This document shows positions 19,244 to 40,193 of a DNA stretch of 64,000 nucleotides, in pieces. Origin of the DNA: Leucobacter muris. GTDB lineage: Bacteria > Actinomycetota > Actinomycetes > Actinomycetales > Microbacteriaceae. The stretch spans positions 2,604,001 to 2,668,000 of the forward strand of contig NZ_CP035037.1 in NCBI RefSeq assembly GCF_004028235.1, given 5' to 3'. Under the pieces are notes generated by a model that was given only the letters and a program-made list of their open reading frames with translations, was not told the origin of the DNA and made no database searches. Made by a program: the position numbers and the translations under genes. Positions within the stretch are counted from its first letter, which is position 1; each line of letters opens with the position of its first letter.

Positions 19244-20323
19244 ATGACCGATGATCGAACCCCCGCATCGTCAACGCAATCCGGCCGGCGCACAGCCGCT
19301 CCCCGGCGGAGGCGCCGCGGCCTGCGCAACACGCTCATCGCGCTCGGCACGCTCGTCGTGCTGCTCGGCATCGCCGCGGGCGTCGCCTACGCCCTGCTCG
19401 CGAGCACCTTCAACGAGGTGCAGCGCGTCAGCATCGAGCAGGATCCGTCGCTCGAACGGCCGGCCGCGGTGCAGCTCGCGGCCGGGGAGCAGGCGCCGAT
19501 CAACATCCTGCTGCTCGGCTCCGACTCGCGCGAGACCACGGATCGGAACGCGGTGGCCGAGGATCTCCAGGGCTTCCGCAGCGACGCCATCATGGTCGCG
19601 CAGATCTCGCCCGATCGGCGGCACCTCACCGTGATGTCGATCATGCGCGACAACTGGGTCGAGATCCAGGGCCACGGCGAGGCGAAGATCAACGCCGCGG
19701 TCGCGTACGGCGGACTGCCGCTCGCGGTCAACACCGTCGAGAACTTCATCGGGGCGCGCATCGACCACGTCGCGCTCATCGACTTCGAGTCGTTCAAGGG
19801 TCTCACCGACGCGGTCGGCGGCGTCACCGTGCGCAACGACGTCGCGTTCACCTCGCGGCACGGCGGCTTCGCGTTCGAGCAGGGCGACGTCGAGCTGAAC
19901 GGCGAGCAGGCCCTCGGATTCGTGCGGGAGCGCTACGCGTTCGCCGACGGGGACTACCAGCGGGCCCGCAATCAGCAGGCCTACCTCAAGGGGCTCACGC
20001 AGAAGGTGATGAGTTCGGAGACGCTGCGCAATCCCGGGCGGCTCGTCGACACCTTCCAGGCGCTGAAGCCCCACCTCATCCTCGATCAGGGCCTCGACCT
20101 CGGCGCCGCCGTCGCCCTCGGCTACGACATGCGCGATCTGCGCAGCGACGACATCGAGTTCTTCACGAGTCCCACACTCGGCACCGGCACCTCGGCCGAC
20201 GGGCAGTCGATCGTGCTGCCCGATTGGGCCGAGATGGCGAACGTGCGGGCCGCGTTCCAGAGCGGCACCCTCGACGAGTACGCGGCGACGCGCGCGGCGG
20301 GGTCCGAGCTGCCGCAGAGCTGA
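19244..20323 (+). CDS. LytR-CpsA-Psr (LCP) family envelope glycopolymer ligase
   Basis: 359 residues. Short basic N-terminus, one membrane segment (about 30-52), then an extracytoplasmic LCP domain with INILLLGSDSRE, SDAIMVAQISPDRRHLTVMSI, IMRD, the KINAAVAYGG loop and RERYAFADGDYQRARNQQ, where the conserved arginines bind the polyprenyl pyrophosphate. LCP proteins attach lipid-carried polymers (wall teichoic acid, capsule, arabinogalactan) to peptidoglycan. It sits at the edge of the polysaccharide genes and probably anchors their product. ATG follows GAGGAG. Confidence 0.92.
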   Translation: MTDDRTPASSTQSGRRTAAPRRRRRGLRNTLIALGTLVVLLGIAAGVAYALLASTFNEVQRVSIEQDPSLERPAAVQLAAGEQAPINILLLGSDSRETTDRNAVAEDLQGFRSDAIMVAQISPDRRHLTVMSIMRDNWVEIQGHGEAKINAAVAYGGLPLAVNTVENFIGARIDHVALIDFESFKGLTDAVGGVTVRNDVAFTSRHGGFAFEQGDVELNGEQALGFVRERYAFADGDYQRARNQQAYLKGLTQKVMSSETLRNPGRLVDTFQALKPHLILDQGLDLGAAVALGYDMRDLRSDDIEFFTSPTLGTGTSADGQSIVLPDWAEMANVRAAFQSGTLDEYAATRAAGSELPQS

Positions 20324-20464: not shown

Positions 20465-20929
20465 CTATCCCTGCAGCACGGCGACCGGGGCCGGTTCGAG
20501 GCGCGCCGCCGGCGTCTCGAGCAGTTCGAGGGCGCGACGCAGCGCGGTGCTCGAGGTGTGCGCGGTGTAGGGGAAGTAGACGACCTCGACGCCCACCCGG
20601 GCGAAGCGGCACTCGAGCTGCAGCCCCTGCTCGGTGCCGCGCCAGTCGTCGCCCTTGAAGAAGTGGGTGAATCCCACCTCGCGCCACACCTCGAGCTTGT
20701 CGGGCACCCGCTCGACGTAGACCTCGTCGACGAAGTCGACGTGGCGCACGATCTCCTCGCGCTCGGCCGTGGGGATCACGGGCTCGCTGCCCTTCACCTC
20801 GCGCAGCATCTCGTCGCTCACCACTCCCGCGACGAGGTAGTCGCAGTGCTGCTTCGCGTGCCGCAGCAGGTTCAGGTGGCCGATGTGGAACAGGTCGAAT
20901 GCTCCCGCTGCATAACCGATGCGCGTCAT
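20465..20929 (-). CDS. Cytidylyltransferase-like protein, TagD family
   Basis: 154 residues. HIGH motif in GAFDLFHIGHLNLL (9-22), FKGDDW (91-96) and TSSTALR (125-131, ISSTxxR type) mark a glycerol-3-phosphate cytidylyltransferase-like nucleotidyltransferase. Such enzymes make CDP-glycerol or a related CDP-polyol from CTP. Family length is about 130-150 residues, so the protein is complete. ATG follows GGGGAG. It precedes nothing else on its strand except the LCP terminator region and probably shares a transcript with the Wzy-like gene upstream. It may supply the CDP-linked head group used by the CDP-alcohol phosphatidyltransferase at 23908-24627; this is inference. Confidence 0.87.
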   Translation of the reverse strand: MTRIGYAAGAFDLFHIGHLNLLRHAKQHCDYLVAGVVSDEMLREVKGSEPVIPTAEREEIVRHVDFVDEVYVERVPDKLEVWREVGFTHFFKGDDWRGTEQGLQLECRFARVGVEVVYFPYTAHTSSTALRRALELLETPAARLEPAPVAVLQG

Positions 20930-20983: not shown

Positions 20984-22477
20984 TCAGCGTAGGTTCGACG
21001 ACGGCCGTTCCGCATCGGCGGGAACTACGTAACCTCCGCCCGCGGCGCGGGGCTCGTTCGCGGCGCGGGGCTCGATCGCGGCGCGGGACTCGATCGCGGC
21101 GCGGGGCTCGATCGCGGCGCTGGGCTCGATCGCGGCGCTGGGCTCGATCGCGGCGCTGGGCGCGCCTCCGCCGAGGCGCGCCACCGCCGACGGCTCCTCC
21201 CTCGCGGCGTCGCCTCCGCCGTCGACCTCGTCGTCCCGCTCCCGCAGCGCGAGCGCCGCCACCGCGAACGAGACGATGAGCCCGTTCGGCAGCAGACCGT
21301 AATAGGCGCTCTCGACCAGGGTCACGAGCTGCACGGTGTGCAGCACGAGCACCACGGGGCCGCGCCATCGAGCGGTCGCCACGACCAGCCAGGTGAGCGC
21401 GAGCATGAAGCAGAGCAGCGCGGGGAGGCCGTGCGAGAACATCACCATCCACACGTGCCCCTGGGTGCCCACCGACGGCGGCGAGGTGAAGGAGGGGCGC
21501 GGGGCGCCGTAGCCGAAGAGGGGCGAGTCGAGCGTGCGCACCCACGTCTCCTCGTAGATCATCGAGCGCGTCGTGGTCGATGCGCTCACCTCGACCCTGT
21601 CGGAGAGGCGGGAGAACAGGTCGAGGCCCACCGCGAGGCCGATGCCGAGCACGCCGAGCGCACCGAGCGCCAGCACCTCGCGCGTGCGGCCGGCCAGCAC
21701 GAAGCGCACGAAGCAGTAGACGCCCCCGACGGCGAGGCCGATGAACATGCCCCGGTTGAGCGAGAGGATCGCGGGCACGAGCGACACCGGCACGGCGATG
21801 AGCACGCACCAGAACCGCCAGCCGCGCCGCACCTCGTCGAGGTAGGCGATCGCGAGCGGCAGCGTGATGGAGTACACGTTGCCCCACGCGTTCGTGTAGA
21901 GGAAGGGGGCGGAGGGTCGGGGCGCGAGCTCCAGCCAGCCGTCGGGGTTGTACTGGGCGGTGCGCCGCACGGCCATCTCGTCGATCAGCTCGTTCTGCAG
22001 CAGCGACTGCGGCAGCACGTAGGCGAGCGGCGACTTGAAGGAGAACTCGGGGAAGAACACCCCGGCGTAGCCGCCGAGCCACGTGTAGATCCAGAACGCG
22101 GTGAAGACGCCGAGCACGTAGCGCCTCGTGAGCTGCTCGCGCGCGTTGTAGACGTACACGAACACCAGCGTCACCACGAGGTAGAGCATCGCCCGGTAGA
22201 CGAAGCCGATCAGACGCCCGCTCGTGTCGATGCCGATCACCGACACGAGCATGAGCACGAGGAAGAGCAGCCAGATCCCGAACCCGCGCGGCGCCCGGAT
22301 GCCGCCCCGCCGGATCATGAGCAGCAGCATGCAGGCGGCGAGCGGGATCCACGCCATCTCGGCGATGCCGAGCACCCACCAGAGGGGGAACCAGACGATC
22401 ATCGCGGTGAGGGGCCATCTCGGCAGCAGAGCGCGGTCGGCGCTCGCCCCGCCCCCGCTCACGGCCCCTGATCGCAT
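20984..22477 (-). CDS. O-antigen ligase/polymerase-like membrane protein (Wzy type)
   Basis: 497 residues with about ten to twelve membrane segments and a large extracytoplasmic loop (roughly residues 130-185), the arrangement of Wzy_C/O-antigen ligase proteins. PLFGYGAPRPSF and GHVWMVMFSHGLPALLCFML resemble the conserved loop (GxGxxxF ... HxxxL). It probably polymerises repeat units outside the membrane. The last 80 residues are a cytoplasmic or exposed low-complexity tail with a hexapeptide repeat (PSAAIE and variants). ATG follows GGGAAGAG. Confidence 0.82.
   Translation of the reverse strand: MRSGAVSGGGASADRALLPRWPLTAMIVWFPLWWVLGIAEMAWIPLAACMLLLMIRRGGIRAPRGFGIWLLFLVLMLVSVIGIDTSGRLIGFVYRAMLYLVVTLVFVYVYNAREQLTRRYVLGVFTAFWIYTWLGGYAGVFFPEFSFKSPLAYVLPQSLLQNELIDEMAVRRTAQYNPDGWLELAPRPSAPFLYTNAWGNVYSITLPLAIAYLDEVRRGWRFWCVLIAVPVSLVPAILSLNRGMFIGLAVGGVYCFVRFVLAGRTREVLALGALGVLGIGLAVGLDLFSRLSDRVEVSASTTTRSMIYEETWVRTLDSPLFGYGAPRPSFTSPPSVGTQGHVWMVMFSHGLPALLCFMLALTWLVVATARWRGPVVLVLHTVQLVTLVESAYYGLLPNGLIVSFAVAALALRERDDEVDGGGDAAREEPSAVARLGGGAPSAAIEPSAAIEPSAAIEPRAAIESRAAIEPRAANEPRAAGGGYVVPADAERPSSNLR
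21043..21160. repeat. 18-bp tandem repeat encoding a hexapeptide
   Basis: Six full units and a partial seventh of the type CGGCGCTGGGCTCGATCG, in phase with the codons of the Wzy-like gene, giving PSAAIE, PRAAIE, SRAAIE, PRAANE. The phase means unit gain or loss would lengthen or shorten the tail without a frameshift. Confidence 0.95.
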
Positions 22478-22574: not shown

Positions 22575-23792
22575 ATGGGCGGCAGCGCAGCGTACGAGCA
22601 GACCCTCGGGGTCTCGCGGTATCTCTCGGTGCTGCGCCGGCAGCGCCGGGTGGCCGTCGCGGGCGTCGTCTTCGGGGTGCTCGCGGCCTGCCTCTACCTG
22701 CTGATCGCCCCGCACACGGTCACGGCGACCACGGCGGTGAACCTCAACGTGATCACCACCGAGCCCTTCAACCAGCAGCGGCCCGCCTCGGGGCTGCTCG
22801 ACGCCCCGACCGAGGCCGACATCGCGAGCTCGCACGCGGTCGCCGAGGGGGCGGCCGAGCTGCTGGGCGGCGAGCTGACGGCCTCACAGGTGCGGCAGTC
22901 GTCGCAGGTCTCGTCCTCGGGCGGCGCGTCGGTGGTGCGCGTCGCGTTCACGGCGCCGACCGAGCAGGAGGCGGTGCGCGGCGCCGACGCGATCGCGCAG
23001 GCCTATCTCGAGTTCCGCAGCGATCAGGCCGAGCAGCGCATCGACACGATGCTGACCAGCATGAACACGCGCATCGAGAAGCTCAACGAGGCCCTGCTGC
23101 AGGCCAACCGCGAACTCGTGTCGGCCGAACCCGGCACGACCGACTACGCGCAGGCCGTCTCGCAGCAGCAGCAGATCCAGGTCGAGCTCGACAGCCTGCT
23201 CTCGCAGCGCAACGCCCTCACCAGTGTCGACACGACCGGGGGCATCGTGCTCACCTCCGCGCGCGACAGCCAGTTCGAGCGGAGCCCGTCGAGCAGGATG
23301 GCGCTCGCGACCGGGCTCGCGGGCGGGCTGGTGCTCGGGATCGTCGCGGCCTTCGCGCGCAACCCCTTCGATCGGCGGCTGCGTTCCTCGACCGACGTCG
23401 CGGAGGTGCTGGGGGCGCCCCTGCTCGCCGACCTCGAGCCGCGCAAGGGCGAGGTGTCCGACGACGACGCTCACGAGCAGATGCGCGTCATCTACGAGCG
23501 GCTGCGCAGCCTCGACTCGTCCGGCGGCCCGGTGATGGTGTTCGATGCGCGACGCTCCTCGGACGAGTCGCGCGCGCTGCGGCAGCTGCGGCAGATCTCG
23601 GACGGCGCGGTCGAGTTCGAGCGGATCGATGCGGGCGCGAGTCGCGCCGACGGCCTCGCGATGCTGCGGGAGGCGGCGGCCGTGCTGGTGCTCTGCTCGC
23701 ATCGCACCGCGCTGGTCGAGGATCTGCGCTGGATCGCTCAGGAGGCGCAGCGCGCGGGCGCCCCGGTGGTCGGCTTCGTCTCAGAGGCGTGA
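22575..23792 (+). CDS. Wzz/BY-kinase-like polysaccharide copolymerase with degenerate kinase domain
   Basis: 405 residues. Two membrane segments (27-45 and 242-261) flank an extracytoplasmic domain with a coiled coil (about 140-215), the topology of chain-length regulators. The C-terminal 140 residues lie where tyrosine autokinases carry their ATPase, but no Walker A is present: the expected loop reads SGGPVMVFDARRSSDESRAL. There is also no tyrosine cluster. It therefore probably controls chain length without kinase activity. ATG follows AAGGAGG. Transcribed away from the Wzy-like gene; the 97-base gap has an inverted repeat TCTCGGG / CCCGAGA (22526-22547). Confidence 0.85.
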   Translation: MGGSAAYEQTLGVSRYLSVLRRQRRVAVAGVVFGVLAACLYLLIAPHTVTATTAVNLNVITTEPFNQQRPASGLLDAPTEADIASSHAVAEGAAELLGGELTASQVRQSSQVSSSGGASVVRVAFTAPTEQEAVRGADAIAQAYLEFRSDQAEQRIDTMLTSMNTRIEKLNEALLQANRELVSAEPGTTDYAQAVSQQQQIQVELDSLLSQRNALTSVDTTGGIVLTSARDSQFERSPSSRMALATGLAGGLVLGIVAAFARNPFDRRLRSSTDVAEVLGAPLLADLEPRKGEVSDDDAHEQMRVIYERLRSLDSSGGPVMVFDARRSSDESRALRQLRQISDGAVEFERIDAGASRADGLAMLREAAAVLVLCSHRTALVEDLRWIAQEAQRAGAPVVGFVSEA

Positions 23793-23907: not shown

Positions 23908-24627
23908 TCAGAGCGCGCGCAGCTTGCGGTACTTGCGCCGCATCGACACGGCCGCGTACACGGCGTTCACCGCGAACAGCACCGCGTAGACGGCTGCGAA
24001 CACGGCGGGCAGGCCCCACAGCGCGAAGCTCCAGCAGAGCGTGCCGGTGTCGGTCGGGATGAGGGCGATCGACTTGCGCACCCCCTACGGCTCGGGGGCC
24101 TCGCCGCCGCGCTGGCGCACCAGCTGCTCGGCGAGGATCTGACTCATGAACTGTCCGGCCGAGACCACCGCGTAGGCGAGGGCGACGCCGGCCAGCCAGA
24201 TCAGTTCGGGCCGGTGCGCCGCGATGGCGACCGCCACCGCGACGTGGGTGAGCGGCGTGCGGATCGCATCGACGACGTGATCCACCCACTCCCCGGCCGG
24301 TCCGCCCGCACCCGTCAGTCGGGCGAGCTGCCCGTCCGCCGAGTCGCAGGCGAAGCCGAGCGCCAGCAGCAGCGCCACCGCGACGCCGACCCCGAGGCCG
24401 GGCTCGGCGACGACGAGCAGCACGAGCCCCGCCAGCGAGCAGAGCGCGCTGACCGCCGTCACCCCGTTGGGGGTGAGGCCGATCACCGCGGCGGCGGCCG
24501 CGATCCGGCGCCCGAGCCAGCGGTTCACCCAGCGCATGTAGGCGGGCACCCCGGCGCCGCTCTTCTGCGCGCTCCGCAGGGTCGCGACGCTCTCGCGGTA
24601 CCTCAGCGGGCTGCGTTCGAGCATCAT
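23908..24627 (-). pseudogene. CDP-alcohol phosphatidyltransferase with in-frame TAG stop
   Basis: The frame from ATG 24627 to TGA 23908 is 240 codons, interrupted once by TAG at 24085-24087 (codon 181). Before the stop lies an intact catalytic motif, DG-x2-AR-x8-G-x3-D-x3-D at residues 98-120, with the surrounding membrane helices. After it the same frame continues as VRKSIALIPTDTGTLCWSFA and a last membrane helix ending MRRKYRKLRAL, a natural C-terminus. A C-to-T change of a CAG codon would explain the stop. The enzyme class moves a phospho-alcohol from a CDP carrier, making phospholipids or decorating polymers. The truncated 180-residue form keeps the catalytic residues but loses the final helices. 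Start follows GAGGAG and abuts the giant secreted gene. Confidence 0.85.
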
Positions 24628-24628
24628 C

Positions 24629-27600
24629 TCACTCCTCTTCGGGAACCGCGGGGGCGGGGGCGATCAGGAATCGCCCCCAGCCCTCGGGCGAGGGTCCGCC
24701 GGCAACCGGGGGTACGGCTGGGGAAGATGCGGCGGGATCCTCTGTCTCCTCGGGTGATTGGGGGACCCGAGGGGTCGGGGTGGTCGGGGTTTCGGCCTGG
24801 GGCGCGACGGGGGCGGGTTCGCCGCCCTGCGTCGCGTCGGGCGCGACCTCGGCGGGCGCCTCGACCGGGGCCTCGGCCGGGACCTCGAGCGGCGCGGGCG
24901 GCGCGACGGCCGCCCGCAGCGGGGTCGGGCTCACGGTGCCGATGGCCTGCAGCTCGAAACTGTGACTCGGCGTCGTGCGGTAGCCCGAGTGCACGGACAC
25001 GGCGATCACGTTGGTGCCGGTGACCAGCAGCTCGCCCGGAACGGTGATCGTCACCGGGTTCGCCAGCGCGGTCGCCGCGTTCGGCGAGCTCGTCGCGTAG
25101 TTGTTCACACCGGCCGGGTTCGCGGTGACGTTCTGCCGCCCCACTTCGGTGCCGTTCACGTAGACCACGATGCCGTCGTCGGCCCGGGTGGTGACCTGCA
25201 TGGACTCCACCCTGGTCGCGTCGGCCACCTCGAAGGCCTTGCGGTAGAAGGAGGCGTAGGGCATCGGAGCCGGCGACGACAGCGGCGTCGCGATGCCGGC
25301 GTGCCCCCAGCCGAACGGGGCGAGTCCCGTCGACCAGCCCGTCGTGTCGGCTCCGGCGCTCACCCAGTCGCCGCTCGGCCCGGCCGCGCTGTACAGGTAC
25401 GCCCACTCGGAGGCGGGCGCCACGTACGAGACCGTCTCGTTGCGCACCGGCTCGGTGCTCAGCGTGCCGATCGCCTGCAGGTCGAAGCTGTGGCTCGGCG
25501 TCGTGCGGTAGCCCGAGTGCATCGACACCGAGACCACGTTGGCGCCCGCGACCAGCAGCTCGCCCGGAACGGTGATCGTCACCGGGTTCGCCAGCGCGGT
25601 CGCGGCGTTCGGCGAGCTCGTCGCGTAGTTGTTCACGCCCGCAGGGTTCGCCGAGACGTTCTGCCGCCCCACTTCGGTGCCGTTCACGTAGACCACGATG
25701 CCGTCGTCGGCGCGCGTGGTGATCTCCATCGACTCGACCCGCGTCGCGTCCTCGACTTCGAAGGCCTTGCGGTAGAAGGAGGCGTAGGGCATCGGAGCCG
25801 GCGCCGACAGCGGCGTCGCGATGCCGGCGTGCCCCCAGCCGAACGGGGCGAGCCCCGTCGACCAGCCCGTCGTGTCGGCCGAGATGCCCGTCCAGCCCGC
25901 GCTCGGGCCCGCCGCGTTGAAGAGGTAGGCCCACTCGTCGCCGGAGTTGATGTAGTTGACGGTGTCCGGCGTCTCGGGGGGCTCCTGCGCCAGCACGGCC
26001 GCGGTCGAGGCCGACTTGTTGCCCGCCGCGTCGACGGCTCGCACGAAGTACTTCGCCCCCGACGCCGACGGCGGCAGCTCGGCGCTCGTGCCGGTGACCG
26101 TCGCGACGACCCGGTCGTCGCGCATCACCTCGTAGCCGGTGACGCCGGTGTTGTCGGCCGCCGCCTGCCAGCTGAGGGAGACCGCGGTGACGTCGCCGGT
26201 CGCGGTGAGCGCCGTGGGTGTCTCGGGCGGCGTGACGTCTCGCTGACCGTGCCGCGTGAAGCCGCTCGTCCACTGCCGCACGTAGCCGGCCCGCGTCGAG
26301 TACGACCAGTCGCCGCCCTGCCAGAGGGTGCCGTTCGAGTCGACCATGAGCGCCCAGGAACCGGCGCCGCGATAGGTGCTGAACGTTCCGTTGAACTGGG
26401 GGATCCGCTCGCCCGTGCTCGCGCTCCACGCGCCCGTGCCCCAGACCGCGTTGGCCGAGGTCCAGCCGGTGCCGATCTCGGGCCACCGGGTCTCGCCCTC
26501 GTACTGCGTCTCGAAGCAGTGGCAGCCGCCGTAGACGACGCCGTTGTACTCGGCGATGGCCTGGAAGTCGCCGCCCGCGTTGCCGATCGTGGTGCTCAGC
26601 AGCGAGAAGTCGTCGCGCGAGTAGCTGAAGAGCGAGTGCTCGGCGCCACCGAGCCACACCCGGTCGCCCACCTCTTTGACCGCCTGCTGGTAGCCGGTGC
26701 GGCCGCCGCTGCGGTTCGAGAAGAGCACGTTCCAGGTGAAGAGGTCGGTGCTCGTGGCCGAGATCGCGGCGGCCTTGTCGGAGTCGCGTCCGCGCGACTT
26801 GTTGAAGTGGCCGGCGAAGTAGGCGCGGTCGCCCCTCGGGGAGGCGTCGACTGCCATCACGGTGCCGTTGAACTCGGGGTTCCAGAGGTCGGGGGTGCCG
26901 TCGGTCACCGAGAGGCGCCCGCCGGCCCGCATATAGCGCTCCTGGGTGGTGGAGCCGCCGGTGCCGTGGGTGAAGGATCCGCCGACGTACAGCCAGCCGT
27001 CCTGCACGTCGAGGGCGCGCACGAGCGGGAAGCCCCCGCTCAGGTGGTTGATGAGCCGCCCGGTGAACTGAGGGTCGAGCTGGCCCGTGGTGCCGTTGAG
27101 CACCGCGAGGCCGTCGCGGGGCTCGCCGTTCACCTCGGTGAAGAAGCCGCCGACGGCGATGCGGTTGCCCGGCAGGGTCGCGAGGGCCCGGATCGCGTTG
27201 TTGAACGTCGGCCTGAACGCGGGATCCCACTCGCCCGTGTCGCGGTTGAACGCGGCGAGGTAGGACTGCTGCTGGGCGCTGCCTCCGGCCGCGGTCTTCT
27301 GCACGGTGGTGAAGTTGCCCCCGACGTAGACCTTGCCGTTGTCCTCGGTGAAGGCGGCCACCTCGTTGTTGCCCTCGATCGAACTGGGACCGTTGCCGAT
27401 CCCGGCGACGCTCCACGGCTGCGGCAGCGCGAAGCTGTCGGCGACCGACGTGGTGGTGACGGCGGGGGTGCCGGTGTCGGGGATCGCCTGGTAGATGTCG
27501 CTGCTCTTGAGCTGGGGCCTGATGAAGACCTGGGTGAAGGGCCGCGCGTAGCCGGTGGAGGTGTCCTTCGACCAGAGGTAGCTCGTGGCGGCCGGGTTGC

Positions 27601-28411
27601 CGCGGATCTGGGACCCGAAGCCGAAGCCCATCTTCCATCCCTCGTTGCTGCCGGTGACGGTGCGCACCCGGTTGTACGAGTTGTCACTGCCGAAGTTGCT
27701 CGTCTCGCCGCCGGTGCGGGTCGTGCTGCCGATCTTGTAGCTGGCGACGCGCTGCTTGTTGTTGAACTGCCAGGTCCAGTCGGCGCGGGGGCTCGCGAAG
27801 GTGAAGGTGAGCTCCTGCCACGAGGTGCCCTGCTGGTTGGTGGCGCGCACGAGGCGGATGCCGTCGGGCAGGTTCTTGATGGGGGTGTTGTTCGCGAGCT
27901 GTCCGATGAGCTCGGACGAGAGCTGCCGGGGGAGGAACGCCTCGGTGCCGGTGACGGCGCTGCGCACCTGCTCCGGGGTGCCGGATCCGGCGTTCGCCAC
28001 ACCCCAGCCGTCCCTGCCGCGACCGACGAGCACCCAGCCGCCGCCGGCCCGCTCCTGGTCGCAGTAGAACTGCTGCGCTCCGCCCATGGCCGGTGTCGCG
28101 AGCCAGTAGACGCCGCTCGGAGCCGAGGGTGTGGTCTGCTTGATCTCCCAGCAGGACGCGGCGGCGGTCGCCTCGCTCAGCCCGTCGATGACGGGCGGAG
28201 TGGGGTCGGCCGCTGCTGCGGCGGTCGGGGCCGCGAGCAGGCTCGCGGCGAGCGCGCCGGCCAGTGCGAGGGCTGCGGTGAGCCTTCCCGTCCTCCAGCC
28301 CGGCCGGGGAACCGCCGGATTCACCGGCGGGGCTCCGCGGCCGTGCGCGGAGTGGCGGAGCAGGCGCTGCCCCGGGGCTGAGCCTGTCAGCGGTGTGCGG
28401 TTGTCGAACAT
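24629..28411 (-). CDS. Giant secreted protein with fibrinogen-like domain, propeller-like region, FN3 and two jelly-roll repeats
   Basis: 1260 residues. Signal peptide to about residue 68 (hydrophobic ALALAGALAASLLAAPTAAAAA). Residues about 85-310 form a fibrinogen-related domain: SCWEIKQ, SGVYWL, FYCDQERAGGGWVLVGRG. Next comes a region of about 400 residues with recurring VGGxFT-type strands (VYVGGNFTTV, IAVGGFFTEV, LYVGGSFTHG, RAYFAGHFNKS), a delta-60/propeller-like fold. Residues about 730-817 are an FN3 domain, then two 170-residue repeats with TRADDGIVVYVNGTEVGRQN (galactose-binding-like jelly rolls), and a Pro/Glu-rich tail of 100 residues. No LPxTG anchor is present. Start follows AGGAAAGAG. 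It lies between the Wzx-side genes and the CDP-alcohol transferase, so it may be a surface or matrix protein tied to the exopolysaccharide. Function unknown. Confidence 0.88.
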   Translation of the reverse strand: MFDNRTPLTGSAPGQRLLRHSAHGRGAPPVNPAVPRPGWRTGRLTAALALAGALAASLLAAPTAAAAADPTPPVIDGLSEATAAASCWEIKQTTPSAPSGVYWLATPAMGGAQQFYCDQERAGGGWVLVGRGRDGWGVANAGSGTPEQVRSAVTGTEAFLPRQLSSELIGQLANNTPIKNLPDGIRLVRATNQQGTSWQELTFTFASPRADWTWQFNNKQRVASYKIGSTTRTGGETSNFGSDNSYNRVRTVTGSNEGWKMGFGFGSQIRGNPAATSYLWSKDTSTGYARPFTQVFIRPQLKSSDIYQAIPDTGTPAVTTTSVADSFALPQPWSVAGIGNGPSSIEGNNEVAAFTEDNGKVYVGGNFTTVQKTAAGGSAQQQSYLAAFNRDTGEWDPAFRPTFNNAIRALATLPGNRIAVGGFFTEVNGEPRDGLAVLNGTTGQLDPQFTGRLINHLSGGFPLVRALDVQDGWLYVGGSFTHGTGGSTTQERYMRAGGRLSVTDGTPDLWNPEFNGTVMAVDASPRGDRAYFAGHFNKSRGRDSDKAAAISATSTDLFTWNVLFSNRSGGRTGYQQAVKEVGDRVWLGGAEHSLFSYSRDDFSLLSTTIGNAGGDFQAIAEYNGVVYGGCHCFETQYEGETRWPEIGTGWTSANAVWGTGAWSASTGERIPQFNGTFSTYRGAGSWALMVDSNGTLWQGGDWSYSTRAGYVRQWTSGFTRHGQRDVTPPETPTALTATGDVTAVSLSWQAAADNTGVTGYEVMRDDRVVATVTGTSAELPPSASGAKYFVRAVDAAGNKSASTAAVLAQEPPETPDTVNYINSGDEWAYLFNAAGPSAGWTGISADTTGWSTGLAPFGWGHAGIATPLSAPAPMPYASFYRKAFEVEDATRVESMEITTRADDGIVVYVNGTEVGRQNVSANPAGVNNYATSSPNAATALANPVTITVPGELLVAGANVVSVSMHSGYRTTPSHSFDLQAIGTLSTEPVRNETVSYVAPASEWAYLYSAAGPSGDWVSAGADTTGWSTGLAPFGWGHAGIATPLSSPAPMPYASFYRKAFEVADATRVESMQVTTRADDGIVVYVNGTEVGRQNVTANPAGVNNYATSSPNAATALANPVTITVPGELLVTGTNVIAVSVHSGYRTTPSHSFELQAIGTVSPTPLRAAVAPPAPLEVPAEAPVEAPAEVAPDATQGGEPAPVAPQAETPTTPTPRVPQSPEETEDPAASSPAVPPVAGGPSPEGWGRFLIAPAPAVPEEE
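24938..25972. repeat. Tandem duplication of a ~528-bp coding segment
   Basis: Two copies, about 24938-25444 and 25466-25972, repeat with a 528-base (176-codon) period inside the giant secreted gene. Nucleotide identity is high over long runs (for example around 25131 and 25659), which points to recent duplication or gene conversion. Confidence 0.85.
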
Positions 28412-28437: not shown

Positions 28438-29106
28438 TCAGCAGGCCGGATCGTCGGGGAAGTCGTGGTTCGTCACGCGCCAGACGTCGTCGTCTCCGCG
28501 TGTGAGGGTGAAGCGGTGCAGGGCGCGGTTGGTGCTCGCGGCGTCTGCGCCGATGGGGACTCCGGCCGAGTCGAGCATGCGCACCGCGGTGGCGTCGACG
28601 CAGCTCACGGCGACGGCGCTGCGCTCGTCGGCGGCGGTCTCGACCGAGGTCTTGACGATTTCGGGCGCGCCGGAGATGCTCCAGCCGTTGACCACGAGCT
28701 CCTGCCACTGCGCTTCGAGTTCGGCGGCGTAGGCGCCGGCCGCGAACCCCTCGATCTGCTTGGCGAGGGCTCCGTCGTCCCCGCTGCGGGTCAGAGGTGC
28801 GCTGATGGCTGCCGCGATGAGCTCGCTCGCGGTATCCTCGGTGATTGAACCCGCATCCCCCGAGCCGCCCGCAGTTTCAGGGGAGTTCGGCGTCTCGGAG
28901 GATGCGGGGGCTTCGGTGGGCGAGGCGGTGCCCTCGGTCTCGCGCTCGATCCCGTCGACGGGTGAGGCGGATCCGTCCGGCTGCTCTGCCCCTGCCGTGC
29001 TCAGCCAGATGCCTCCGGCTGCGACGGCGAGTGCGGCCGCAATGGTCGCGGTCAGTGCCCACCGCCTGCGCGGGGGCCCTGCCGGGCCTGCTGGTTCGTG
29101 GTTCAT
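28438..29106 (-). CDS. Uncharacterised membrane-anchored extracytoplasmic protein
   Basis: 222 residues. Basic N-terminus, one membrane segment (about 16-37), an acidic Ser/Pro/Glu-rich linker (to about residue 95), then a compact domain of about 125 residues ending VWRVTNHDFPDDPAC, with Cys residues that could form a disulfide. The overall layout resembles small anchored domains of the SnoaL/Mce-associated kind, but I do not recognise the family. ATG follows AGGGACACC. It lies in the same run as the Wzx gene and the giant secreted protein, 26 bases before the latter, so a shared role outside the cell is likely. Confidence 0.75.
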   Translation of the reverse strand: MNHEPAGPAGPPRRRWALTATIAAALAVAAGGIWLSTAGAEQPDGSASPVDGIERETEGTASPTEAPASSETPNSPETAGGSGDAGSITEDTASELIAAAISAPLTRSGDDGALAKQIEGFAAGAYAAELEAQWQELVVNGWSISGAPEIVKTSVETAADERSAVAVSCVDATAVRMLDSAGVPIGADAASTNRALHRFTLTRGDDDVWRVTNHDFPDDPAC

Positions 29107-29174: not shown

Positions 29175-30671
29175 TCACTCCGGAGCTCTGGGGCCCCCCG
29201 GCAGTCTGAGCCGGGCTCGGGCGAGGCGGCCGCAGGCGGCGAAGAGCGCGAGACCGACGCCCGCTGCGACGACGAGGCCGACGAAGCCCGGTCCGAGCAG
29301 CAGCCTGGCGAGCAGGGCGGGGGCGCCGACGCTGCCCAGGCAGACGACGAAGGCGAAGAGCCCCGCGGCGGGGGCGATGCGCAGCCGCAGCACGAACCGG
29401 ATCTCGCACCAGGCGAGCAGCGCGTCGACGACGCACGCGATGGTCCAGGCCCACGCGGCTCCGACGATGCCCCAGGCCGCGACGAACGGCGGGATCAGCG
29501 CCACGTTGATGGCGACGACCACGGCCTTGTTGATGGCGGCGAGGCCGCTGCGTCCTGCGGTGAGCAGGATCGTCTGCACGTTGCCCGCCAGGAAGGCGAC
29601 CAGCGCGCCGAGGCACATCACGGCGAGCGTCGAGGCGCCCGAGACGAAGTCGGGGCCGAGCACCGCGAGGGCGACGGGGGCGAAGACGGCGAGCAGTATG
29701 AAGACGGGGGCGCTGAAGAGCACGAGCCAGCTCGTGGCGGTGCGGTGCAGCTCGCGCACGTCGTGCTCGGCTCCGCGGTGCTGCATGCGGCTGAAGATCG
29801 GGGCGAAGACCACGCGGATCGCCGAGTCGACGATCATGCCGGCGGCGACGAAGCGGCTCGCGGCGCCGTAGACGCCGGCGGCGGCCGGACCGGCGACGGC
29901 GCCCACGACGAGCACGGAGATCCAGAGCAGCATCTGCTCGAGCGCGGCCGAGATCACGCGCGGGCCGGCGAAGCCGAGGGTGCGGGCCGGCAGCGCGGTG
30001 CCGAAGAAGCGCGCGCCCCGCCCGTAGCCGAGGCCGCGCATCTGGCGCGCCACGACCGCGAGTGCGATGGCGAGCGCGGCCGCCGCGGGCAGCGCCCACG
30101 CCAGCACGACGCCGCTCAGCGTGAGGCCGAGCAGCATCGCCGCGAGCACCGCCAGCAGCCGGGCGGCGGGCAGCCCGACGCTGCCGATCAGCACGTACTC
30201 GGCGATGCGTCCCAGCGCTCGGCTCACGGCGAGCGACGTCAGCAGCATCGCCGCGAAGGGCAGGAGGACGGCGCTGATCCGGATCGCGGCGGGCAGCGGG
30301 TCCGAGGGGTTCGCCTCGGCGGCGAGCGCGGCGCCGATCCACACCGCCGCGGCGCAGACCGTGCCCGCGACTCCCGAGACCGCGATGAGGAACCAGGAGG
30401 TGGCGCGCACCTGCTGCGGCTGGTCGTCGGCGAGGCGCGGCAGCAGCCACACCGCGGTCGAGTCCATGCCGAAGCGCGCGAAGCCGAGCGCGATCATGAG
30501 GACCGCGATGGCCTGCAGCACGATCCCGGAGTCGGCGTCGCCGAGGAAGCGGGCGAGCACCACGACCAGCAGGAAGCCGAGCAGGGCGCTCGTCGCCGAG
30601 CCCGCGAAGCTGAGCATGCTGCGGCGGCCCAGGGTCCGCTCCTCGCGCAGGGGGGCCGCGACGGCGGTCAT
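29175..30671 (-). CDS. Polysaccharide flippase, Wzx/MATE-like
   Basis: 498 residues with about fourteen hydrophobic segments. N-terminal RRSMLSFAGSATSALLGFLLV and the central ALEQMLLWISVLVVGAVAGP, AAGVYGAASRF are typical of the polysaccharide-synthesis flippase family. It would turn lipid-linked repeat units to the outer face for the Wzy-like polymerase. The ATG overlaps the WecG-like stop codon (ATGA). The longer upstream frame only reads through the neighbouring gene. Confidence 0.9.
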   Translation of the reverse strand: MTAVAAPLREERTLGRRSMLSFAGSATSALLGFLLVVVLARFLGDADSGIVLQAIAVLMIALGFARFGMDSTAVWLLPRLADDQPQQVRATSWFLIAVSGVAGTVCAAAVWIGAALAAEANPSDPLPAAIRISAVLLPFAAMLLTSLAVSRALGRIAEYVLIGSVGLPAARLLAVLAAMLLGLTLSGVVLAWALPAAAALAIALAVVARQMRGLGYGRGARFFGTALPARTLGFAGPRVISAALEQMLLWISVLVVGAVAGPAAAGVYGAASRFVAAGMIVDSAIRVVFAPIFSRMQHRGAEHDVRELHRTATSWLVLFSAPVFILLAVFAPVALAVLGPDFVSGASTLAVMCLGALVAFLAGNVQTILLTAGRSGLAAINKAVVVAINVALIPPFVAAWGIVGAAWAWTIACVVDALLAWCEIRFVLRLRIAPAAGLFAFVVCLGSVGAPALLARLLLGPGFVGLVVAAGVGLALFAACGRLARARLRLPGGPRAPE

Positions 30672-31432
30672 GCGATGCTCGCAGTCAGGCGCTGCCGCGC
30701 GAGTGCGGCGATGAACTGCACGTTGCCGAGCAGGTAGCGCTTGGCCAGACGCCTCGGTTCGAGGCCCAGCCGCCAGAACCACTCGAGCCCGGCGCGGATC
30801 ATCCACCGAGGCGCGCGGCGGTTCGAGCCGCTCAGCCAGTCGAACAGCCCGCCGCAGGTGAGCACGGCCGGCGGCAGCAGCTCCTCGTGCTCCTGCACCC
30901 AGCGCTCCTGCACCGGGTCGCCCATGCCGACGAAGAGGATGCCCGTGCCGTGGTCGGCGATGTCGGCCGCGATGCGCGGCACGTCGTGCTCGCCGAAGTA
31001 GCCGTGGTGGGTGCGGATCCGCGCGCCCGGGATGCGGGCGCGCAACCGTTCGGCCGCCGCCTCAGCCACCCCTTCGGCCGCGCCGAGGAAGTAGACGGGG
31101 ATGCCGGCGTCGGCGGCGGCCCGCAGCACGGGCTCCGCGACGTCGGTGGTCGCGAGGCGCTCGGGCAGGCGACGGCCGAGCAGACGCGCCCCCCACACGA
31201 TCGACTGCCCGTCGGCGTACGTGGTGTGCCGCTGCAGGAAGCCGCGCAGTTGCGCGTCCTTGCGGGCCAGGTTGCAGACGTGGGCGTTCACGCCCACGGC
31301 GACATCGACGCCCGGCTTGCCGGCCCACTCGATGACGGTCTCGGCGAACGAGCGCTCCGTGAACGAGTCGACCGCCACGCCCGCCACCTCGACCGAGGCG
31401 CTGCCGTGCGGGTGCACGTTGAGGTGCGACAT
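30668..31432 (-). CDS. WecG/TagA/CpsF-family glycosyltransferase
   Basis: 254 residues. GT26 fold: VNAHVCNLARKD, TTYADGQSIVWGARLLG with the conserved Asp, VYFLGAAEGVAEAAAERL, and FVGMGDPVQERWVQEH near the C-terminus (GxGxPxQE motif). Enzymes of this family add the second sugar, typically ManNAc or ManNAcA, to an undecaprenyl-linked first sugar. ATG follows AAGGAG by ten bases, two bases after the WbaP-like stop. This fits a step right after the WbaP-type enzyme. Confidence 0.92.
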   Translation of the reverse strand: MSHLNVHPHGSASVEVAGVAVDSFTERSFAETVIEWAGKPGVDVAVGVNAHVCNLARKDAQLRGFLQRHTTYADGQSIVWGARLLGRRLPERLATTDVAEPVLRAAADAGIPVYFLGAAEGVAEAAAERLRARIPGARIRTHHGYFGEHDVPRIAADIADHGTGILFVGMGDPVQERWVQEHEELLPPAVLTCGGLFDWLSGSNRRAPRWMIRAGLEWFWRLGLEPRRLAKRYLLGNVQFIAALARQRLTASIA

Positions 31433-31434
31433 GA

Positions 31435-32913
31435 TCAGTACGCTCCTTCGCGGTGCACCATGACGCGCGCGGTGCGCCACATGATCTGCAGGTCGTTCAT
31501 CAGCGACCAGTTCTCGACGTAGCTGAGGTCGAGCCGCACGCTCTCGTCCCACGAGAGGTCGCTGCGACCGCTCACCTGCCAGAGGCCCGTGATGCCCGGC
31601 TTCACATAGAGCCGGCGCACGACGGTGCCGTCGTAGGCGGTGACCTCGGCGGGCAGCGGCGGCCGCGGGCCGACCACGCTCATGTCGCCGCGCAGCACGT
31701 TCCAGAACTGGGGCAGCTCATCGAGCGAGAGCTTGCGCAGCACCCGCCCCACGCGGGTGACGCGCGGATCCTGCTTCATCTTGAAGAGCGGGCCGGATCC
31801 CTCGTTCCGCTCCCGCAGCTCCGAGAGGCGCTGCTCGGCGTCGACCGCCATGGTGCGGAACTTGAACATGGTGAACACGCGCCCGTCGCGCCCCACCCGC
31901 TGCTGGGAGAAGAACACGGAGCCGGGCGAGTCGAGCTTGATCAGCAGCGCCAGCACGGGGGTGATGAGCGCGATCGCGGCGAGCGCGAGCGCGGCGACGC
32001 TCACGTCTAGGCCTCGCTTCAGCAGGTGGTGCCCGCCCTCGTAGGAGGGGATCTTGATCTGCAGCATCGGCAGCCCCTCGACCGGGCGGAACGAGATGCG
32101 CGGGCCGACCACGTCGGTGACCCGGTTCGAGAGCACGAGGTTCGCCGCCGTGCCCTCGAGCCGCCAGCTGAGCTCGCGCACGAAGGAGGGCGCGTTCTCC
32201 GGCTGACTGGCGACGATGATCGTGTCGGCCCCCGCCTGCGAGGCGACCGCGGCCACCTGGTCGGCGCTGCCGCGCACCTGGTAGCGCCGGCCGCCCACGA
32301 CGAGCGGGCCCCGGTCGGCGCCGAAGAGCGTGGCCGCGACCACCTGGTAGCCGCTGCCGCGATCCGCCTGCAGCGTGCGGATCACGTACTCGACGTCGGC
32401 CCGCTCCCCCACGACGAGGGTGCGCGAGGCGTAGTGGCCGATGCGGCGCTGCTCGCGCAGCCAGCGCCGCCACTCCCAGCGCGAGACGAGCAGCGCGACG
32501 AGCCCGATCGGCAGCGCGGCGAAGATGAGCACCCGGTCGCCGCTCCAGTCGGCGATGAGCGCGGCGATGGCGACCGCGCCGAAGGCGAGGCCGGTGCCGT
32601 GCGCCACCCGGCGGTACTCGAGCGCGCCCGCTCCGAGGCAGCCGAGGTCGCGGCTGCGCATGCCGGTGAGGGCGAGGATCCAGAGCGTCACGAGCGCGAC
32701 CGCCACGATCGGGGTCGAGCGGCTCGTGCCCACGAGCAGCGACTGCAGCAGCAGCGAGGCCCCCACCGAGGCGAGGATCACCAGCGTGTCGGACGTGCGC
32801 AGGCACCACCGGAAGTTCCGCTCCCAGCGCCGCCTGCGCTCCAGCGTGGGCGTGCGCCGCGGCGACAGCGCCACCGCTCCCGTGAACGTATCCAGCCCGC
32901 TCTCCACCAGCAT
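31435..32913 (-). CDS. Undecaprenyl-phosphate sugar-phosphotransferase, WbaP/CpsE-like
   Basis: 492 residues. Four to five N-terminal membrane helices, a nucleotide-fold middle domain, another helix (about 310-330), then the catalytic bacterial sugar transferase domain: KRGLDVSVAALALA, FFSQQRVGRDGRVFTMFKFR, LDELPQFWNVLRGDMSVVGP and VKPGITGLWQVSGRSDLSW. It starts repeat-unit synthesis by placing a sugar-1-phosphate on undecaprenyl phosphate. ATG follows GGGGAG. The 180-base gap before it, after the LuxR-type gene, contains two TACGCAA direct repeats (32991, 33055) and a possible -10 TAGCCT on the minus strand. Confidence 0.93.
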   Translation of the reverse strand: MLVESGLDTFTGAVALSPRRTPTLERRRRWERNFRWCLRTSDTLVILASVGASLLLQSLLVGTSRSTPIVAVALVTLWILALTGMRSRDLGCLGAGALEYRRVAHGTGLAFGAVAIAALIADWSGDRVLIFAALPIGLVALLVSRWEWRRWLREQRRIGHYASRTLVVGERADVEYVIRTLQADRGSGYQVVAATLFGADRGPLVVGGRRYQVRGSADQVAAVASQAGADTIIVASQPENAPSFVRELSWRLEGTAANLVLSNRVTDVVGPRISFRPVEGLPMLQIKIPSYEGGHHLLKRGLDVSVAALALAAIALITPVLALLIKLDSPGSVFFSQQRVGRDGRVFTMFKFRTMAVDAEQRLSELRERNEGSGPLFKMKQDPRVTRVGRVLRKLSLDELPQFWNVLRGDMSVVGPRPPLPAEVTAYDGTVVRRLYVKPGITGLWQVSGRSDLSWDESVRLDLSYVENWSLMNDLQIMWRTARVMVHREGAY

Positions 32914-33093
32914 GCCGACTCCCCTAGCTTGCACTCCATCGTGAATGTGGAGTCAGGCTAAGAAGATCGGGGGCCGTCGCGGGGGGAAGTTACGCAAGCC
33001 CTACGGAGGGGTTCGGCGCGGTTCCCGGGGCCTCTCGCGGAAACCTCCTCCAGCTACGCAATCCCCCGGCCTGGCCCTGCGACCGGCCCGCGC

Positions 33094-35746: not shown

Positions 35747-35839
35747 CACTCGACTCCCCCAGGGGAGCCAGTCGGCCCCCACTGCCGCCCGAAAGCCCCC
35801 TCAGAGTAGGCCGAGTTTTTTCACCCTGCACTCGACATT

Positions 35840-37964: not shown

Positions 37965-38048
37965 CGACTGCGCTCCGCCCCGAGCGGGGTGAGTAGGAAT
38001 CACGGCTTTTGTCCGCCCCCGCCGGGCACGCGACCTACCATCTGGCGT

Positions 38049-40193
38049 GTGGGAGCATTCGCAGTACAGCAGCAGACGGCCGTGCGCCCCGGCGCCAAGG
38101 CCGGGTACATGCACGAGATCGACGGTGTGCGCGGCATCGCGCTCACGCTCGTCATGCTGTTCCACGTCTTCGGCAACGGCCGGGTCTCGGGCGGGGTCGA
38201 CGTCTTCCTCGTGCTGTCGGCCTACTTCCTCACGCGCAAGCTGCTCGGCTACTTCGACCGGCCCGAGCCGGGCGGCGGGCGCAAGCGACCTGCGGCCTGG
38301 CTGCGCAAGCACTTCATCGGCGTCTCGACGCGGCTGATCCCGAGCTCGGTCATCGTGCTCTCCGCGGTGCTGATCGGCACCTGGCTGTGGGTTCCGGCGA
38401 CCCGGTACCTGCAGACCTTCCGCGAGGTGTTCGCCTCGGCGCTGTATTACGAGAACTGGGAGCTCATCTCGTCGCAGCTCTCGTACGGCGCCGCGGGGCC
38501 CGATTCGAGCCCCGTGCAGCATTTCTGGTCGCTGGCCGTGCAGGGGCAGTTCTTCCTGGTCTGGCCGTTCCTGGCGCTCGCGCTCTACGCGGCCTTCGGG
38601 CGCCGCAGGGGCGCCGGCGCCGGCGATGCCCGTGCCGCGGGTGCGGGCGGCTTCTCGTTCCGAGCGGTGTTCCTCGCGACGACCGTCGTGCTGACGGTCG
38701 TGTCGTTCGTCTGGGCGCTCATCCTGGTCGATGCCGATCAGACCGTCGCCTACTTCAACACGTTCAGCCGGTTCTGGGAGCTGGGTGCGGGGGCGCTGAT
38801 CGCGTTCATCCCCGCTGCCTTCTGCGCTCGGTCGTGGGTGCGGGAGGGCGGCATCTGGGTCGGGCTCGGCATGATCCTCGTGTGCGGCTTCATCTTCGAC
38901 GGCGCGCGCGAGTTCCCGGGGGTGCCGGCCCTCTGGCCGGTGGGGGCGTCGCTGCTCGTGCTCTTCGGCGCGACTCGCGGCGCCCCCGACGGGTGGGCCG
39001 CGCGGGCGCTCAGCGTGGGCCCCGTCAAGTTCCTCGCCAGGATCACCTACCAGCTGTACCTCTGGCACTGGCCCGTGCTGGTCTTCACCATGCGCGCGCG
39101 GGACGAGACGTCGGTGGGCTGGGACGTCGCGATCTTCGTGGCGGCCGTGTCGTTCGTGCTCTCGATCCTCACCGAGCGGCTCGTCTCGTCGGTCTCGCGA
39201 CGATCGCTGCAGGAGTGGTCGTGGCCGCGGGCCGCCGCCGTGCCCCTGGTGCCCCTCATGCTGCTCTCGACGGTGACCGTGGGGTGGGCGCAGGCCGTGA
39301 ACCAGCAGCGCAAGGCGGATCTCGCGGCGGCCGCTCAGCTCTCGCCCGAGCAGGTCGGGGCGGGCGCGCTCGCCGGCCCGCACCCGGCGGTGCGGGTCGA
39401 TCCCGAGGCGCGCTTCCTGCCCACGCCCACATCGGCCTTCATCGATCTCGCCCCGATCTACCACGAGGGCTGCATCCAGTCGCACCGCGACGAGCCCGGG
39501 GCGGGCGAGGTGCTGGTCTGCGACGTCGACGACTTCGGCGCCGAGCGCACGGTGGTGCTCACCGGCGGGTCGTTCTCGGTGCAGTGGTATCCCGCGCTGC
39601 GCAGCATCGCCGAGCAGCACCACTGGCGCCTGATCGTCATCGAGAAGGACGGCTGCCGGCTCACCACCGAGCAGACCGGGGACACCTGCAGCGACTGGAA
39701 CGGCGACGTCATCCGCACGATCGCGTCGTATGATCCCGACCTCGTCTTCACTCTCGGCAGCGTCGTCTCCTTCGAGGCGGACACCCCGGAGGAGATTCCG
39801 ACGGGCATGGTCGAGCAGGTCGAGAAGCTCGGCGAGCTCGGCATCGAGGTGGTGGGGATCCGGGGCACCCCGAAGTTCCCCTTCGACGTGCCCGAGTGCC
39901 TCGTCGAGCACGGGGGCGATCCCGAGGCCTGCTCCCTGCCCCGGTCGCAGAAGCTCGCCTCCGACTTCTTCGAGACGCTGGCGGCCGATCTGCCGGCGAA
40001 CCTCAGCATCCTCGACCTCTCCGACGCGCTGTGCGGGCCGGCCGTCTGCGAGCCGATCGTCGGCAACGTGCTCGTCTACCGCGATGACGGGCACATGACG
40101 AGCACCTACGCCCGCACCACCGAGCCGGCGCTGCTCGAGGCGCTGCGCGAGGCGGAGCCGCAGCTCTTCTCGACACAGCCCGCGACGAGCTGA
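38049..40193 (+). CDS. Acyltransferase-3/SGNH-hydrolase fusion, OatA-like
   Basis: About 714 residues. N-terminal acyltransferase-3 domain: EIDGVRGIALTLVMLFHVFG, GGVDVFLVLSAYFLTRKL, and about ten membrane helices to residue 420. A C-terminal extracytoplasmic SGNH-like domain follows (VVLTGGSFSVQWYPALRSIA; catalytic triad end DDGHMTSTYA). Proteins of this type O-acetylate peptidoglycan or exopolysaccharide. The usual GDS at block I appears here as GGS, the same Ser position. GTG is chosen because TACCAT lies seven bases upstream; an in-frame start 60 bases earlier is possible. Probably modifies the polymer of this locus. Confidence 0.87.
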   Translation: MGAFAVQQQTAVRPGAKAGYMHEIDGVRGIALTLVMLFHVFGNGRVSGGVDVFLVLSAYFLTRKLLGYFDRPEPGGGRKRPAAWLRKHFIGVSTRLIPSSVIVLSAVLIGTWLWVPATRYLQTFREVFASALYYENWELISSQLSYGAAGPDSSPVQHFWSLAVQGQFFLVWPFLALALYAAFGRRRGAGAGDARAAGAGGFSFRAVFLATTVVLTVVSFVWALILVDADQTVAYFNTFSRFWELGAGALIAFIPAAFCARSWVREGGIWVGLGMILVCGFIFDGAREFPGVPALWPVGASLLVLFGATRGAPDGWAARALSVGPVKFLARITYQLYLWHWPVLVFTMRARDETSVGWDVAIFVAAVSFVLSILTERLVSSVSRRSLQEWSWPRAAAVPLVPLMLLSTVTVGWAQAVNQQRKADLAAAAQLSPEQVGAGALAGPHPAVRVDPEARFLPTPTSAFIDLAPIYHEGCIQSHRDEPGAGEVLVCDVDDFGAERTVVLTGGSFSVQWYPALRSIAEQHHWRLIVIEKDGCRLTTEQTGDTCSDWNGDVIRTIASYDPDLVFTLGSVVSFEADTPEEIPTGMVEQVEKLGELGIEVVGIRGTPKFPFDVPECLVEHGGDPEACSLPRSQKLASDFFETLAADLPANLSILDLSDALCGPAVCEPIVGNVLVYRDDGHMTSTYARTTEPALLEALREAEPQLFSTQPATS

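Follow-up and report, generated by a model that had tools for sequence, protein, structure and literature searches.

A conserved actinobacterial protein with a predicted fibrinogen-related fold, encoded among surface polysaccharide genes

What does a protein with a fibrinogen-like domain do among the genes of a bacterial polysaccharide locus? The question is raised by P0001, a protein of 1,260 amino acids encoded in a 64,000-nucleotide stretch of the Leucobacter muris genome (NZ_CP035037.1, positions 2,604,001 to 2,668,000; hereafter the window). The source genome belongs to an actinobacterium and contains 3.21 Mb. The frame is open from an ATG at 28411 to a stop at 24629 on the reverse strand. 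From the N-terminus, P0001 contains a hydrophobic stretch, a domain with the GGGWT_bact motif, a DUF5122-type propeller, a fibronectin type III (FN3) domain, two jelly rolls, and a proline- and acid-rich tail. Among named relatives, that of Leucobacter chironomi is the closest (93% over 654 columns). P0001 is a real, conserved, uncharacterised protein and is likely a secreted binder of the polymer of its own cell.

The first domain is predicted to be a fibrinogen-related domain (FReD). An earlier note on this DNA, made from the letters alone, had placed such a domain at residues 85-310 and had named SCWEI, SGVYWL, and YCDQERAGGGWVLVG as its marks. All three fall within residues 86-130. The NCBIfam model NF040941 (GGGWT_bact) scores 69.8 bits over residues 86-129, above its cut-off of 30, and Pfam PF00147 (Fibrinogen_C) has no match to P0001 at E<=1. 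P0001 is therefore not assigned to PF00147. PF00147 matches 8 of the 45 aligned family members at E<=1e-3. Across the source genome it matched nothing at E<=0.001, a result made uninformative by control genomes that were equally silent. The AlphaFold2 model of residues 70-315 is confident, with a predicted local distance difference test (pLDDT) score of 95.7. It was compared with the Protein Data Bank (PDB) in two structure comparisons, and all 50 matches listed in each were FReDs. The fold spans residues 74-300, approximately, in the model, which agrees with the domain first proposed.

The nearest solved relatives of this domain by sequence are animal intelectins (X-type lectins). With phmmer against the PDB, residues 83-135 matched Xenopus XEEL (1.2e-4) and intelectin-1 (1.6e-4). 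Weaker matches were to angiopoietin-2 (0.01, the same residues) and ficolin-3 (0.54). A profile of 78 FReD rows matched XEEL at 8.4e-11, FIBCD1 at 9.9e-5, ficolin-3 at 0.0044, and tachylectin-5A at 0.0052. Ficolins, tachylectin-5A, and FIBCD1, which bind acetyl groups, share the predicted fold but are further away by sequence than the intelectins. The intelectin match covers only about 50 residues, and the FReD of P0001 differs from intelectins in its single cysteine pair and its fusion to a propeller.

Cys87 and Cys117 are kept in all 78 FReD rows, and 75 rows hold exactly two cysteines. The N-terminal cysteine pair of animal FReDs forms a disulfide, and Cys87 and Cys117 probably pair in the same way. 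Animal FReD lectins also have a second, C-terminal disulfide and a calcium site with paired acidic residues. The second disulfide has no counterpart in P0001. Asp243 is Asp in 43 of the 78 rows, as read from a sequence alignment. Past residue 200, the sole nearly fixed acidic or amide position is 294 (Gln or Glu, 77 of 78 rows). The earlier note had drawn on ficolins to suggest that the domain may bind acetylated sugars. That argument is not supported, given the nearer intelectins, the single cysteine pair, and the lack of a ligand site readable from the sequence.

Secretion of P0001 is a prediction from its hydrophobic N-terminal stretch. A comparable stretch lies within the first 80 residues of 116 of the 127 homologues listed, which come from two listings (the best 120 of 638 and the best 120 of 1,062). 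None of the 127, P0001 included, has a hydrophobic C-terminus. The word LPx[TS][GA] occurs in the last 60 residues of four of them, without a hydrophobic stretch. A sortase anchor, taken as a C-terminal LPXTG with a hydrophobic stretch, is therefore absent from P0001 and from the listed homologues, as the earlier note had said of the wall anchor. The propeller Cys-His-Cys motif is present in 127 of 127 and a strict FReD motif in 121. P0001 can be aligned with 14 relatives across the FReD, the propeller, FN3, and one or both jelly rolls.

The neighbours of P0001 in the window include family matches to a Wzx flippase, a WbaP-type transferase, and a CDP-alcohol transferase, all three as first described (Table 1). 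The flippase and initiating transferase that mark a Wzx/Wzy-dependent cluster are both present, with PF01943 and TIGR03025 over cut-off. Like known capsule and wall clusters of this type, the window also contains polymerase-like, WecG/TagA, co-polymerase-like, and LytR-CpsA-Psr genes. The last of these belongs to a family that attaches polymers to the wall.

This setting recurs across actinobacteria. Relatives of P0001 are encoded in 164 stretches of a species-level genome collection, and the best 80 of the 164 were kept, which gave 79 loci with 10-kb flanks. Profiles grown from the window genes (threshold E<=1e-4) matched Wzx in 69 of the 79 loci, Wzy in 67, Wzz in 65, and the CDP-alcohol transferase in 54. 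Matches to a small neighbouring protein, hereafter the partner, were found in 63. The cytidylyltransferase was matched in 40 loci, the WbaP-type transferase in 39, WecG in 32, and the regulator and a glycosyltransferase in one each. Wzx, Wzy, or both were found in 71 loci and neither in 8. A Pfam scan of 50 neighbour open reading frames (25 Wzx-type and 25 Wzy-type) returned 24 Polysacc_synt and 24 Wzy_C matches. An acyltransferase near the P0001 gene had been cited as support for acetylated sugars. It lies 9.6 kb away, reaches only 382 bits against the 1275 set for SucT, and has a relative in 0 of the 79 loci, although a 10-kb flank scarcely extends far enough for this count to be decisive. 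It lends that idea no support.

The same genes were counted in stretches of about 20 kb around 20 FReD genes and in 20 arbitrary 20-kb stretches. The cases came from 20 of the 22 FReD genomes other than the source genome (G254 and G284 were omitted for short contigs), and the controls came from 12 case genomes and the source genome. Of the 20 cases, 18 had Wzx and 18 had Wzy, and none of the 20 controls had either. The CDP-alcohol transferase and the partner were each found in 18 cases and one control. The remaining genes were absent from the controls and were found in 14 (Wzz), 9 (WecG), 9 (WbaP-type), and 8 (cytidylyltransferase) of the cases. Some organisms contributed both to the profiles and to the cases, which makes the case counts partly dependent. 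The link between FReD genes and polysaccharide genes is strong. Two checks proposed in the earlier note could have refuted its idea, through a missing FReD fold or through homologues mostly away from polysaccharide genes, and neither did.

Cell-surface polysaccharide is the common denominator of these loci. With predicted secretion, several folds known as sugar modules, and no anchor, polymer binding outside the cell is the simplest reading. Our favoured explanation is that P0001 is an extracellular binder of the Wzx/Wzy-type polysaccharide made by the surrounding genes (probability roughly 0.45). The FReD and jelly rolls would be the glycan-binding ends, and the propeller and FN3 would space them. 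The capsule or wall polymer would then be dressed or cross-linked by protein, and P0001 would act as an endogenous lectin and not as a host adhesin. FReD carriers cover many actinobacterial genera, including Cryobacterium, Nocardioides, Microbacterium, Schaalia, Actinomyces, and Rothia, a spread that fits a function on the coat of the cell that makes the protein. The earlier note had left the choice between a self-polymer binder and a host-facing adhesin. The first remains the best reading; a purely host-facing role fits poorly with such varied carriers. An adhesin that faces a host or a neighbouring cell and sits among capsule genes by chance is improbable in our judgement. Schaalia, Actinomyces, and Rothia are generally known from mouths and animals, and animal FReDs are recognition domains. 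Close relatives, however, occur in genera whose usual habitats are ice, soil, or saline places. An adhesin would also not need the Wzx/Wzy linkage, and P0001 has no wall anchor.

The partner contains 222 amino acids, and its gene sits between those of P0001 and the flippase. Its N-terminus is hydrophobic and is followed by a low-complexity linker and then by a domain in which two cysteines are invariant. In a sample of 299 genomes of the family, it was matched better than 1e-30 in all 21 genomes with the FReD and in none of the other 278 (Fisher p 1e-32, a value that ignores relatedness). Some of the 21 proteins were part of the profile. The next-best match was partial (2.1e-19). Matches at E<=1e-4 occur in 235 of the 299 genomes, so the domain has common distant kin. 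In at least 32 of the 74 loci with a recognised FReD frame, counted by a distance window, the partner gene is immediately upstream in the same orientation. Beyond the family the pairing breaks down in the loci examined: the partner was not seen in 16 of the 79 wider loci, including all 6 Aeromicrobium loci, or near the two case genes from other families. The comparison with solved structures gave nothing significant. The window partner has a single Pfam match, below cut-off (E 0.1), and one relative is labelled DUF6318 by a source. Under the favoured explanation, the partner, where present, may hold P0001 at the membrane through its hydrophobic N-terminus.

The exact co-occurrence in the family sample and the position of the partner gene between P0001 and the flippase also suit another role. 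P0001 might be an extracytoplasmic factor that works with the partner in assembly or export of the polymer and has no place in the matrix. The CDP-alcohol transferase and cytidylyltransferase genes, matched at E<=1e-30 in 20 and 21 of these 21 genomes, point the same way. They are present in 80 and 81 of the 278 non-FReD genomes as well, so that part of the pathway is independent of the FReD. Because of this, the FReD/partner pair looks accessory to a wider polysaccharide pathway. With the 16 loci that show no partner also against it, we regard an assembly factor as quite unlikely.

The propeller is clear in the models and has seven blades. DUF5122 is over its cut-off in P0001, and it matches 27 of the 45 family members (Rax2 matches 11). 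All 50 structural matches listed for the propeller model are WD40-type scaffolds. When the full-length model was run in Foldseek, the top rows were scattered over several domains with large root-mean-square deviations. The FN3 region matches the solved chitinase A1 FN3 at 3.9e-10 (phmmer against the PDB), and Pfam fn3 falls below cut-off (14.5 vs 25 bits). The jelly rolls match families that are accessory domains of carbohydrate enzymes, and phmmer found no match to them in the PDB. The arrangement of propeller, FN3, and two jelly rolls in a single protein, first read from the letters, agrees with these family matches and the AlphaFold2 models. By eye the two jelly-roll repeats are nearly identical, which suggests recent duplication or conversion.

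Conservation in the propeller raises the question of an enzyme. His482 is kept in 44 of 45 rows and His592 and His631 in all 45; the three stand directly after the Gly-Gly motifs of blades 3, 5, and 6. Cys630 and Cys632 are kept in 43 rows each. Asp615, Gln617, and Gln575 are also invariant. Oligogalacturonate lyase has a three-histidine metal site within a propeller. P0001 could be a secreted enzyme that modifies or cleaves the cluster's polymer to trim or mature it. The three histidines, with the Cys630-His631-Cys632 motif, would line a metal-binding or catalytic site in its propeller, and its FReD and jelly rolls would be glycan-binding modules. Family names place this jelly-roll type in polysaccharide lyases and beta-galactosidases. 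The Pfam matches of P0001, however, include no catalytic carbohydrate-enzyme family, and the structural matches listed for its propeller are scaffolds. We consider both the enzyme and this putative site somewhat unlikely.

The CDP-alcohol transferase and cytidylyltransferase travel together in the family sample. At E<=1e-30 both were found in 98 genomes, out of 100 and 102 with each. The nearest solved enzymes to the cytidylyltransferase profile are ethanolamine-phosphate cytidylyltransferase (3.9e-32) and glycerol-3-phosphate cytidylyltransferase (2.6e-18). The window protein is below the TIGR01518 cut-off (62 vs 165.4 bits). Decoration with glycerol-phosphate is weakened by both results. A more specific, intelectin-like system is a long shot. 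A secreted FReD lectin, kept at the membrane by the partner, would read a phospho-alcohol (e.g., glycerol-phosphate or phosphoethanolamine) on the cell's own polysaccharide, added by this enzyme pair. If so, a fold with which animals recognise bacterial coats would serve the bacterium on the coat that it makes itself. The window CDP-alcohol phosphotransferase has an in-frame stop (TAG) after its catalytic motif and is 58 residues shorter than its L027 relative. Intact copies exist elsewhere, and the stop is a strain mutation or a sequence error.

The domain name is already in databases. NF040941, titled "fibrinogen-like YCDxxxxGGGW domain-containing protein", describes the same motif, and close relatives are so named in NCBI records. 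Its model covers 46 residues and is silent on fold, architecture, neighbourhood, and function. The propeller shares its repeat type with Delta-60/DUF5122 and Rax2-type propellers and differs in its seven blades, invariant histidine set, and FReD fusion. No published study of the bacterial GGGWT_bact domain was found in searches of open-licence papers, and a fibrinogen-fold protein is not known from any described Wzx/Wzy cluster. What is new, as far as those searches show, is the predicted fold of the whole domain, the constancy of the architecture, the recurrent neighbourhood, and the partner. FReDs are viewed as animal recognition modules, several of which sense sugars on bacterial surfaces. 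With a conserved branch in bacteria that is linked to capsule and wall genes and has a companion gene, one can ask directly whether the fold also binds the producer's own polymer. A nameless gene pair in many actinobacterial genera thereby becomes a defined, testable module.

Table 1. Features of P0001 and its neighbours, in window coordinates
Feature	Coordinates	Strand	Basis
P0001, predicted-secreted FReD/propeller/FN3/jelly-roll protein, 1,260 aa	24629..28411	-	open frame; NF040941 69.8 bits; structure models
Likely signal peptide near the N-terminus, hydrophobic, residues ~40-69	28205..28294	-	sequence
FReD, residues 74-300; invariant Cys87 and Cys117	27512..28192	-	
Seven-bladed beta-propeller, residues 320-728	26228..27454	-	
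FN3 domain, residues 730-805	25997..26224	-	chitinase A1 FN3 match
Jelly roll 1, residues ~815-984	25460..25969	-	AlphaFold2 strands; BetaGal_gal-bd match below cut-off
Jelly roll 2, residues ~990-1152	24956..25444	-	BetaGal_ABD2 26.7 bits, cut-off 23; AlphaFold2 strands
Partner, 222 aa, hydrophobic N-terminus, invariant Cys169 and Cys222	28438..29106	-	25-row alignment
Wzx-type flippase (Polysacc_synt)	29175..30806	-	PF01943 2.2e-19, over cut-off
WecG/TagA/CpsF glycosyltransferase	30668..31552	-	PF03808 2.4e-55; TIGR00696 over cut-off
WbaP/WcaJ-like polyprenyl glycosylphosphotransferase	31435..32934	-	TIGR03025 411 bits, cut-off 295.55
CDP-alcohol phosphotransferase	24085..24627	-	PF01066 38.8 bits, cut-off 22
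Wzz/polysaccharide co-polymerase-like protein	22575..23792	+	Wzz PF02706 and EpsF matches, below cut-off
Wzy-like polymerase	20984..22477	-	PF04932 (Wzy_C) 30.4 bits, just below cut-off 31.7
Cytidylyltransferase, probably makes CDP-alcohol	20465..20929	-	PF01467
LytR-CpsA-Psr protein	19244..20323	+	PF03816 2e-42
Acyltransferase-3/SGNH fusion	37989..40193	+	resembles mycobacterial SucT

The occurrence of the FReD is patchy. Counting the source genome, carriers number 21 among the 299 genomes sampled from the family, 5 among 54 from the genus, and 4 among 396 from the phylum. The FReD tree mostly tracks genera with some mixing (32 label changes, minimum 26). The patchy occurrence and partly mixed tree suggest loss of the locus or occasional transfer. 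A mobile-element origin was rejected: a search with residues 70-315 at E<=1e-5 matched none of the 72,556 plasmid and 50,697 phage records compared.

Some genomes contain three or four FReD genes (L054, L064, L065, L078 from Microbacterium sufflavum, L076 from Rothia amarae, and L084). The copies are sometimes close together, and the L064, L065, and L078 stretches have no Wzx or Wzy match. The copies in L074 and L083, titled Sanguibacter and Xylanimonas, are very near those of Schaalia and Actinomyces, and these records may be mislabelled. The large ATPase-type regulator of the window (32990-35782, reverse strand) has its LuxR-like helix-turn-helix out of frame, near 33,100-33,300, which looks like the result of a frameshift. 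The one related locus with a relative of this regulator is L027.

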